Positions 14,856 to 36,311 of a DNA stretch of 52,854 bases are shown piece by piece. Under the pieces are notes generated by a model, which saw only the letters and a list, made by a program, of their open reading frames with translations, searched no databases and was not told the DNA's origin. The DNA lies in the NCBI GenBank assembly GCA_021159885.1, contig JAGHDO010000071.1, positions 1-52,854 on the forward strand, given 5' to 3'. A program made the translations under genes and the position numbers. Within the stretch, counting starts at the first letter, position 1; each line of letters starts with the position of its first letter. This DNA is from Synergistota bacterium (GTDB lineage: Bacteria > Synergistota > GBS-1).

Positions 14856-15692
14856 TTAAATCTCCAGGTCTTTCAGCTTCTTTTGAGCTCTCACAATAGC
14901 AGAAATGGTCTGCATGAGAACATCGAACTTTTCAACGCTTTCATTCATTAATTTCACCGCATCTCCAAGCTCTGAGGATCTTCCCCTTATCTGAGTCTGA
15001 GCCTCGCTCAAAACGCTGGAGATTCTCCTCAGAAATTCCTGATTATATTCCATAAAATTCATTATCTGCTTTAGAGAGTTTTCAAAAGCCTCAAACACCT
15101 TTTCTATTATCCTAAGGCTATTTAAGGCCGAGGTCACCGAAACAGAGATATGTTTTATCCTCTCATTTATCTCAGAGGAAACGTGATTAGCTTCACCAGC
15201 AAGCTTTTGAACCTCAGACGCAACCACCGCAAAACCTTTGCCACGCTCCCCAGCTCGAGCTGCTTCTATAGAAGCATTCAATGCGAGTAAATTCGTCTGC
15301 TTCGCTATCTTGGATATAGACCTTATAAGGTCGGCTATCTCCGAAAACTTCTCAAGCGCGGAGGAAGCCTCACCAAGAGCTCTTCTTATATCCTCGTTTA
15401 CCTTTGCAAGATCGGTTCCCGATTCCTCAAGCTCCTTAACAAGCCTGCTCCTTATCTCTTCCATCTCTCCCGCGGTCTCATCTATCTCCTGAAAGCTCTT
15501 ATCAAAACGCTCAACCAATCCCTTAAACTCATCAGACATCTCTATAAAATCGCGAGAAAGATCGCCCATCTCCTTCTGAATACTCCCTATTCTCCTTAAC
15601 AAGACTTCATCGAGTTGTTCCATAAAAGATGTCATTACATTTTCCGCAAAGAAGGCAGAGGACATCTTCTTAAGTACTTTCCTATTCATCAT
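14856..15692 (-). CDS. soluble methyl-accepting chemotaxis protein
   Basis: This 278-aa receptor has no transmembrane segment and no recognisable sensor domain of its own. A helical N-terminal region leads to the conserved MCP signalling tip, containing KQTNLLALNASIEAARAGER and GKGFAVVASEVQKLA (about residues 128-165). The tip is flanked by coiled-coil heptads. The tip is the part that contacts CheA and CheW. It is probably a cytoplasmic chemoreceptor whose input comes from a partner. The gene lies 3 nt downstream of the ODP-type di-iron protein gene, exactly the pairing known for the Treponema denticola ODP sensor and its cytoplasmic MCP. It starts at MMNRK after GGAAGGTG; either ATG is possible. 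Confidence 0.88.
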   Translation of the reverse strand: MMNRKVLKKMSSAFFAENVMTSFMEQLDEVLLRRIGSIQKEMGDLSRDFIEMSDEFKGLVERFDKSFQEIDETAGEMEEIRSRLVKELEESGTDLAKVNEDIRRALGEASSALEKFSEIADLIRSISKIAKQTNLLALNASIEAARAGERGKGFAVVASEVQKLAGEANHVSSEINERIKHISVSVTSALNSLRIIEKVFEAFENSLKQIMNFMEYNQEFLRRISSVLSEAQTQIRGRSSELGDAVKLMNESVEKFDVLMQTISAIVRAQKKLKDLEI

Positions 15693-15695
15693 CTA

Positions 15696-16463
15696 TCACC
15701 TTCCGTATATTTCATCGATGAGCTCCACACCACAGGTCAAGTTAGAAAACCACCTCAAGAATTCCTTCACAGATTCCCCTTTCATAACCGCTCCGTGCTG
15801 AGGAGCTATCATATCTATCTTTCTCTGAGAAACTATATCCACCCATTTCTTACAAGCTTTTCCAGAAACCATATATCTTCTGTGAAATCCCTCCATCAGC
15901 TTAAGATGCTTTTGAAAATCCTCAACGATCGGATAACGCCCTCCTTTTGGAAATATGGCAGCACCTATGTCCCCTGAAAAGAGGATTTTAGAAGTAGGAT
16001 CATAAAGACTAAAGTTGGCAAGAGAGTGTAGAAAGTGAGCTGGCAAGCACTCAAGCTCACGACCACTTCCAAACTTTATCTTCATCCCACGATCCGGTAT
16101 CCCCTTAACCCTCTTTTGATCATATATCCCAAAGTGAGGGAGAAACCTCAACCACAGCTCTGAGATATAAATGTTCGCTCTCTCTGCTATGGATAACCAT
16201 AGCATCACTCCAGAGGAAACATCTGGATCTTGATGAGAGAAAAATATATGCTTAATTTGATCAAGGCTAACGTGCTCTGCCACATTAGCCAAAACTCTTG
16301 GAAAAACGTGGGCCCCACCTGGATCAAGAAGAACAGCTTCATTCCTGTCCAATATAAGATATTGGTTTGTCTGAACTATTCCCTCCTCCTCTTCCTCCTC
16401 CCATCCCAGAAGTATGAACTTATGCTCTTCATCCTCATAAAGCGTTATGCTTGTTGTGCTCAA
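15696..16463 (-). CDS. ODP-type di-iron metallo-beta-lactamase-fold protein (oxygen/iron sensor)
   Basis: The 255-aa protein has the beta-lactamase fold of flavodiiron proteins but no flavodoxin domain. Ligand positions match the flavodiiron series: H77, D79 and D81 in SHQDPD, H146 in AHFLHSLANF, D165 in LFSGDIGAA and H223 in APQHGAVM. The usual Glu of the first motif is Asp here, and the following His is Val. Family knowledge: in Treponema denticola such an ODP binds iron and oxygen and signals through a neighbouring soluble MCP. The same two-gene arrangement is present here. The start is TTG behind AAGGAGGG; no in-frame ATG fits. A role as an oxygen reductase enzyme is the alternative. Confidence 0.85.
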   Translation of the reverse strand: MSTTSITLYEDEEHKFILLGWEEEEEEGIVQTNQYLILDRNEAVLLDPGGAHVFPRVLANVAEHVSLDQIKHIFFSHQDPDVSSGVMLWLSIAERANIYISELWLRFLPHFGIYDQKRVKGIPDRGMKIKFGSGRELECLPAHFLHSLANFSLYDPTSKILFSGDIGAAIFPKGGRYPIVEDFQKHLKLMEGFHRRYMVSGKACKKWVDIVSQRKIDMIAPQHGAVMKGESVKEFLRWFSNLTCGVELIDEIYGR

Positions 16464-16501
16464 AGCGCTTCCCTCCTTTCCTATACGCTCTATCTTAATT
16501 T

Positions 16502-16515
16502 ATAACATATGTTAT
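16502..16515. promoter_or_regulatory. 14-bp perfect palindrome in the ODP/cheR divergent promoter region
   Basis: ATAACATATGTTAT reads identically on both strands. It lies between the divergently transcribed ODP-MCP and cheR genes and ends at the candidate -35 of cheR. It is a plausible dimeric operator that could control both directions. The bound regulator is unknown. Confidence 0.4.
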
Positions 16516-16543
16516 GGACTTCCGTAAGAGCACCTGTTATAAT
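16515..16543 (+). promoter_or_regulatory. candidate cheR promoter (TGGACT, 17 bp, TATAAT)
   Basis: TGGACT (16515-16520) and a perfect TATAAT (16538-16543) are 17 bp apart, about 47 bp ahead of the cheR start codon. The -35 matches four of six consensus positions. The palindrome at 16502-16515 touches the -35, which would suit repression or activation. Confidence 0.6.
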
Positions 16544-16589
16544 TTAGGAAAAAACAAAATATAAGTTCAAAGCGGGAGGAAATGAAAAG

Positions 16590-17393
16590 ATGATAAACAG
16601 AGATGACTATACTTCTTTTCCAAAGGAATACGAAAACTTTAAAAAGAAGTTTTTTGAGCTTTCTGGAATTAACTTAAACTCTTACAAGCATCAAATACAC
16701 AGAAGGGTCCATATGTTAATGAAGAAATGGAATATAGATGACTATGATGAGCTTTTTAAGCTCATAAGCACCGACAAGGGGAGATACATGGACTTCTTAA
16801 ACTACCTTACGATAAATGTTTCCGAATTCTTTAGAAATCCAGAACGCTTCGACATCCTTGAGAAAGAAATTATTCCCATGATTATGCGCCCTGACAAGTC
16901 AATCAAAGCATGGAGTGCAGGGTGCGCTACTGGTGAGGAGCCATACTCACTTGCTATAGTATTTGAAGACCTAAGAATAAAGAAAACGCCCCGTATTTTA
17001 GCAACAGATATAGATCGCGATGCTATAGAAAAAGCCAAAAGAGGAATATATGAAGCAAAACAGCTTTACAATGTAAGGCCAGACAGACTTAAAAAATATT
17101 TCCTTAAAAAGAGCGACAACCTATATGAAGTCTCCCAAGTTATAAAAGACAGGATTAACTTTAAACGCCACGATCTCGTTTTAGATCCCTTCGACAAGGA
17201 CTTTGACCTTATCCTTTGTAGAAATGTAGTGATATACCTCGAAAGAGAAGTTAAGGAAAAACTATACCGAAAATTTAAGGACGCCCTTCGTATTGGAGGA
17301 GTCCTTATGGTGGGCAACACCGAACAGATCTTTGGATACAAGGAGATGGGCTTCCGCTCGATAAAGCCCTTTTTCTATCAACGAGTCAAATAG
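16590..17393 (+). CDS. cheR: chemotaxis protein methyltransferase CheR
   Basis: The 267-aa protein has the CheR N-terminal helical domain (residues 1-80) ending in TINVSEFFRNPERFD. The SAM-binding fold follows, with AWSAGCATGEEPYSLAIV as motif I, and then LATDIDRDAIEKAKRG and LILCRNVVIYLE. It transfers methyl groups from SAM to receptor glutamates for adaptation. GGGAGG lies 10 nt before the ATG; an earlier ATG closes after three codons. It is one of only three plus-strand genes here. Its 3' end overlaps the convergent gamma-carbonic-anhydrase-like gene by 16 nt, and no terminator is visible. Confidence 0.95.
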   Translation: MINRDDYTSFPKEYENFKKKFFELSGINLNSYKHQIHRRVHMLMKKWNIDDYDELFKLISTDKGRYMDFLNYLTINVSEFFRNPERFDILEKEIIPMIMRPDKSIKAWSAGCATGEEPYSLAIVFEDLRIKKTPRILATDIDRDAIEKAKRGIYEAKQLYNVRPDRLKKYFLKKSDNLYEVSQVIKDRINFKRHDLVLDPFDKDFDLILCRNVVIYLEREVKEKLYRKFKDALRIGGVLMVGNTEQIFGYKEMGFRSIKPFFYQRVK

Positions 17394-35390: not shown

Positions 35391-36311
35391 TCACCTCACT
35401 TTAAAAAGGGAAAGATGTACCAACTTGTCTTCAAGCAATAAGACTTTTCCCAAAAGTTTAACCCCATCGCCAAACCTCAGTTCCACCCCACACCCTATCG
35501 AGGGATAGCTCCTCACCCTCGAAAAAGTAAGCGAGGAAATAAACCTCCTTACCCTCTTGAGCGAAACGGAGGAACTCCCCCGTGTAAGGAGCCCCTCCAT
35601 GAGATAACTCTTTATTAACTTCCTTAGCATTCTCGAAAGGATCTTACTACTCCCGAAAAGATCGATAGCTATGAGAGCTGGCGTTTCTATTATAAAGCCA
35701 GAAAATTTCTCCTTCAAGCCCTCCGCCTCGCTTGCATAACGCTCTATCTCATCCTTAAGGTTATCGTACGCATCATGAAAAGAAGAAGTTCTCGATGAAA
35801 TCCGAAGGCTTGATAGGGCATCCCTTATCGAATTCCAGAGCGAGCGCTGATCAGACCTATATCCCTTGTTTTCCTGAAGCGATCTATTAACCCCACTACA
35901 TAGTAAACTACGCAATGAGGGATTGAGCATAGTTCCTCCCGGGATAAAGGAATTTCCTCCCCGCCATCTTCCTTCCTCAACGCAGGAAACCGGTAATCTA
36001 TAAGATCTGCCGGGTTCAAGCCAAACCGAGGTATTAGATACTCTATTCTGATATGCGCCTAATAGCTCCTCTCCGTCCAAGAGAAAGATAGGGGTATTAG
36101 AAAAATTCTCAAAGATAACAGTATCAACGCGAGGAGGATCAAGCTCTTTAATAGAGAATCTCCCTTCCTCAAGCGCGATAGGTAAATTTTCCTCAAGACT
36201 ATCCGGTACCTTTATGGGATAAACAACAAGGTTTCTCAGGAAGAAAGGCTCTTCAAAATCGATATCTTTCTTAAGACTCTCCAAGATACGCTTTCCGTAC
36301 TCTATCATCAT
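35391..36311 (-). CDS. ARPP-1/DUF6569-type protein
   Basis: The 306-aa protein resembles the ARPP-1 (DUF6569) family: NLVVYPI near the N-terminus, then PIFLLDGEELLGAYQNRV and LPVSCVEEGRW (residues 74-115). A serine-rich helical middle and a C-terminal strand region (GCGVELRFGDG) follow. The biochemical role of the family is not established, as far as I know. The gene starts 41 nt inside the end of livF and is followed after 3 nt by the STAS gene, so it links the amino-acid transporter to the signalling genes. Family assignment is from remembered motifs and should be checked by profile search. Confidence 0.7.
   Translation of the reverse strand: MMIEYGKRILESLKKDIDFEEPFFLRNLVVYPIKVPDSLEENLPIALEEGRFSIKELDPPRVDTVIFENFSNTPIFLLDGEELLGAYQNRVSNTSVWLEPGRSYRLPVSCVEEGRWRGGNSFIPGGTMLNPSLRSLLCSGVNRSLQENKGYRSDQRSLWNSIRDALSSLRISSRTSSFHDAYDNLKDEIERYASEAEGLKEKFSGFIIETPALIAIDLFGSSKILSRMLRKLIKSYLMEGLLTRGSSSVSLKRVRRFISSLTFSRVRSYPSIGCGVELRFGDGVKLLGKVLLLEDKLVHLSLFKVR

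Follow-up and report, generated by a model that had tools for sequence, protein, structure and literature searches.

Does a short cluster of chemotaxis genes on a Synergistota contig encode a sensory unit for oxygen and iron, and which of its genes belong to that unit? In the window, as the whole analysed stretch of 52,854 nucleotides is called here, a gene for an ODP-type protein lies next to a gene for a soluble chemoreceptor (MCP), and cheR is located on the opposite side of odp (Table 1). A sequence-only reading of this DNA had taken all three genes for one oxygen/iron taxis unit with a possibly unusual iron site. The pair of odp and receptor gene is a two-gene module already known in Thermotoga maritima and Treponema denticola; in the present case it occurs in a deep-branching member of the Synergistota. 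Very probably, it is a cytoplasmic O2/iron-sensing chemotaxis module: ODP would respond to O2/Fe(II), dock onto the receptor and modulate CheA.

Table 1. Position and properties of the odp locus features in the window.
Feature	Position	Strand	Description
Soluble chemoreceptor (MCP)	14856–15692	minus	278 aa, intact; Pfam MCPsignal 1.6e-30
Receptor N-terminal segment	15573–15650	minus	about residues 15–40, FFAENVMTSFMEQLDEVLLRRI; conserved in ODP-linked receptors of Synergistota and Thermotogota
ODP stop / receptor ribosome-binding site overlap	15693–15704	minus	GGAAGGTGATAG before receptor ATG
odp	15696–16463	minus	TTG start, 255 aa, intact; Pfam ODP 7e-79
odp/cheR divergent intergenic region	16464–16589		126 bp
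cheR	16590–17393	plus	267 aa, intact; Pfam CheR 1.5e-56; divergent from odp across 126 bp

The window ODP has the metallo-beta-lactamase fold and its gene is intact. All six expected ligand positions are present (H77, D79, D81, H146, D165 and H223), as had been claimed from the sequence, and they are invariant in the alignments. The protein shares 72% identity with the ODP of T. maritima (6qrq, 6qwo), which is among the closest solved proteins, and 56% with ODP TDE2498 of T. denticola (6qnm, 6r9n). The PDB titles of these entries name a chemotaxis sensor ODP, with 6r9n representing a peroxy diiron species. The predicted structure of the window ODP (pLDDT 91.6) matched 6qwo and 6qrq with a TM-score of 0.94–0.95 and an rmsd of 1.2–1.4. 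Placement with the flavodiiron reductases, the outcome which the sequence-only reading had named as contrary to a sensor, was not found by sequence: identity with flavodiiron proteins is about 20–27%. The TM-score to them is about 0.7–0.77, a value that reflects the core fold in common. Both hallmarks of flavodiiron proteins, the C-terminal flavodoxin domain and the HxExDH motif, are absent. Judged by sequence and predicted fold, the window ODP is a chemotaxis-sensor-type ODP and not a flavodiiron reductase. A search for viral relatives of ODP yielded none.

The first ligand motif, HQDPD, had earlier been interpreted as a sign of a differently tuned iron site. This did not hold, as HQDPDV was present in 114 of 114 ODPs read, including both crystallised chemotaxis ODPs (T. 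maritima and T. denticola). Named genomes were scanned with patterns containing HQD, but the Synergistota search, performed with the whole protein, returned the same motif. A locally tuned site is ruled out by this family-wide occurrence, and the flavodiiron protein of the same genome carries HAEQDH. To read HQDPD as an unusual iron site is a possible error that the present comparison corrects.

Since the metallo-beta-lactamase-type diiron core is common to the window ODP and the flavodiiron proteins (TM0755 of T. maritima and G000 C30 of this genome), ODP could also be seen as chiefly an O2- or peroxide-scavenging enzyme, with the adjoining receptor sensing something else. The shared fold and the presumably anaerobic nature of the organism agree with such a role. 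Flavodiiron proteins, however, are about 400 aa long with an HxExDH motif, whereas the window ODP, at 255 aa and with HQDPDV, has no flavodoxin domain for electron delivery; moreover, the genome possesses a separate flavodiiron protein of 411 aa beside a flavin reductase-rubredoxin-like gene, and scavenging leaves the near-invariant coupling of ODP to a sensorless receptor unexplained. We consider a scavenging enzyme most improbable and regard ODP as a sensor in what follows.

The coupling was assessed in 185 Synergistota genomes, of which 41 contained an ODP (E below 1e-25). At all 34 Synergistota loci with enough flanking sequence, the window included, a soluble receptor gene was found directly downstream of odp. 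The same arrangement was present in 79 of the 80 best named ODP loci, distributed over nine phyla (Synergistota, Thermotogota, Spirochaetota, Aquificota, Campylobacterota, Nitrospirota, Thermodesulfobacteriota, Calescibacteriota and Methylomirabilota). The one exception, in a Nitrospirae MAG (L095, 3950–7134), has the gene order cheW-MCP-MCP-ODP-cheR-cheD-cheB and no soluble receptor. At five control loci, with flavodiiron or weak/other ODP-domain genes, no MCP was found beside the gene. Because the pair is kept in 34/34 Synergistota and 79/80 named loci, a chance adjacency of ODP and MCP is excluded. In T. denticola, ODP has been described as an oxygen sensor whose gene is coupled to that of a receptor (TDE2496) which has no membrane or sensing modules and yet modulates CheA (PMC7666581). 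The pairing reported earlier for the window thus has its counterpart in T. denticola, with a receptor that is likewise sensorless, and the supposition of another phylum was correct, the genome being from the Synergistota. In the literature searched, no description of the module in Synergistota was found.

The genome encodes CheA and flagellins, and at least 14 of its proteins, the window receptor among them, exceed the Pfam cut-off for receptors. Within the Synergistota, ODP was found in 39 of 128 CheA-bearing genomes versus two of 57 CheA-less genomes (p = 1.4e-5, uncorrected for shared ancestry). The two CheA-less genomes with an ODP are 87% and 89% complete.

A comparison of ODP homologues with their neighbouring MCPs, proposed in the sequence-only reading as a check, gave two gene trees that agree. 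Tree distances of ODP and receptor correlated with r = 0.78, a value reached in 0 of 2000 permutations and partly reflecting the species tree. On the ODP tree, almost all phyla form single clades, with 8 changes, the minimum number, which indicates that inheritance was largely vertical. The window ODP joins the Synergistota (96/81). The ODPs of two relatives from its own family (L059 and L061) fall inside the Thermotogota, beside two Thermotogota MAG loci on short contigs. A family clade of the window ODP with these two was rejected at p = 1e-4, or at p = 0.02 when the two Thermotogota loci are counted as mis-binned. This split within the family suggests, from the sequences, either exchange or mis-binning.

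The receptor gene follows odp on the same strand after a gap of 3 nt. The likely ribosome site of the receptor gene, GGAAGGTGA, overlaps the ODP stop codon, and as both lie in the same stretch the two genes are probably translationally coupled. No membrane helix was found in the receptor (highest 19-residue Kyte-Doolittle mean 1.0) and no sensor or ligand-binding domain; the MCP signalling tip is present. Pfam, hydropathy and the short gap consequently bear out the earlier description of a soluble, sensorless MCP 3 nt from ODP. The receptor model consists of one long antiparallel helical hairpin that is interrupted at residues 91–94. Its best solved relative is 3g67, the soluble receptor Tm14 of T. 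maritima (also 3g6b); the similarity is only moderate and the protein is from another phylum.

Among ODP-linked receptors, the tip is the most conserved part, with pairwise identities up to 0.98. Invariant residues were also found in the N-terminal helix (F15, S22, F23 and D28) and near the C-terminus (A269, Q270 and L273). In a receptor hairpin, these conserved ends come together far from the kinase tip, and for this reason they are the strongest candidate for an ODP dock. From conservation, the N-terminal segment and the C-terminal AQKKLKDL are put forward as this candidate dock. The solved Tm14 construct does not contain the conserved N-terminal segment. The Spirochaetota receptors differ from that of the window, as they form a divergent branch with another N-terminal segment and most have one relaxed methylation-like site.

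The proposed sensing module would operate as follows. ODP may represent a flavodiiron-type core after loss of the flavodoxin domain. By analogy with the T. maritima and T. denticola proteins, it would bind two Fe(II) and subsequently O2 as a stable diiron-peroxo species, without reducing the O2. Its iron/oxygen state would reach the co-transcribed soluble receptor through direct contact, most likely among the conserved N- and C-terminal residues at the hairpin end distant from the kinase tip. The receptor tip would couple this state to CheA/CheW and hence to flagellar reversal, an effect on CheA expected from the analogous systems, and the response would probably be oxygen avoidance in an anaerobe. 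From this analysis, the model draws on gene identity, motif, fold, conserved pairing, co-evolution and the presence of CheA and flagellins; for iron and oxygen binding and the CheA effect of the window ODP, it follows the work on T. maritima and T. denticola. Oxygen sensing for chemotaxis by a non-haem diiron centre is also performed by DcrH of Desulfovibrio vulgaris (reviewed in PMC13401364). DcrH, however, is a fusion of a hemerythrin fold with a transmembrane receptor, whereas in the window ODP is a separate protein.

By cryo-ET of T. denticola, ODP was observed to have no fixed position in the array (PMC7666581), so the contact between ODP and receptor may be transient or indirect. In the same organism, deletion of ODP alters CheA ordering, while the position of ODP is not visible (PMC7666581). 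These observations would fit an ODP that acts via general array organisation or expression and does not signal by touching the paired receptor directly. Such a mode of action appears unlikely in view of the tight pairing and the parallel evolution with one particular receptor, and a sensing contact between ODP and this receptor is preferred.

The place of cheR in the unit was weighed separately. As described earlier, the gene is divergent from odp, and no other CheR was found in the genome. Together with the short distance of 126 bp, and with a Nitrospirae locus where cheR directly follows ODP, this could point to one adaptation-competent unit of three genes, with CheR methylating the ODP-linked receptor. 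However, not one of the other 33 Synergistota loci, among them loci from the same family, has cheR next to ODP. A full consensus methylation site was absent from all 34 Synergistota and all 14 Thermotogota ODP-linked receptors in a consensus scan, in which unusual sites may escape notice; the window receptor has one relaxed match (AGEMEEIRS). Of the seven long receptors that were read from this genome, by contrast, six carry two to four consensus sites. The three-gene unit is therefore highly unlikely, and the inclusion of cheR in the sequence-only reading was not upheld. As a conserved member of the unit, cheR is ruled out by the lack of adjacency and of consensus methylation sites. It most likely serves the methylatable receptors of the genome and is a neighbour of the ODP pair only, its position most likely being a local accident or the result of a shared chemotaxis neighbourhood.

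It is possible, and is proposed here tentatively, that in Synergistota and Thermotogota the ODP-linked receptors function without adaptation by CheR and bear a composite ODP dock made up of their N- and C-terminal ends. CheA would then receive an oxygen/iron signal that does not depend on methylation, is of ancient origin and has been passed on as a pair of genes in at least nine phyla. Two predictions can be tested: the receptor ends rich in invariant residues form the dock, and methylation by CheR is dispensable. The range of this chemotaxis sensor for oxygen and iron, which has been characterised in two organisms, is widened to nine phyla, mostly anaerobic or thermophilic lineages, with sensor and receptor travelling and evolving together.

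In the divergent region between odp and cheR, a promoter-like site facing cheR was located at 16515–16543. A perfect 14-bp palindrome, ATAACATATGTTAT, is present at 16502–16515 and is a possible operator on the basis of its sequence; when the region was shuffled 20,000 times, a palindrome this long occurred in 267 cases. A genome-wide search for a shared operator revealed no second copy of the palindrome, and with a single copy evidence for a regulon is absent.

Elsewhere in the genome, the flavodiiron gene (L002, 692–2571) and the gene upstream of it overlap; the latter can be read as a flavin reductase whose end is rubredoxin-like. In the window itself, an ARPP-1 domain protein is encoded at 35391–36311, adjoining branched-chain amino acid ABC transporter genes.
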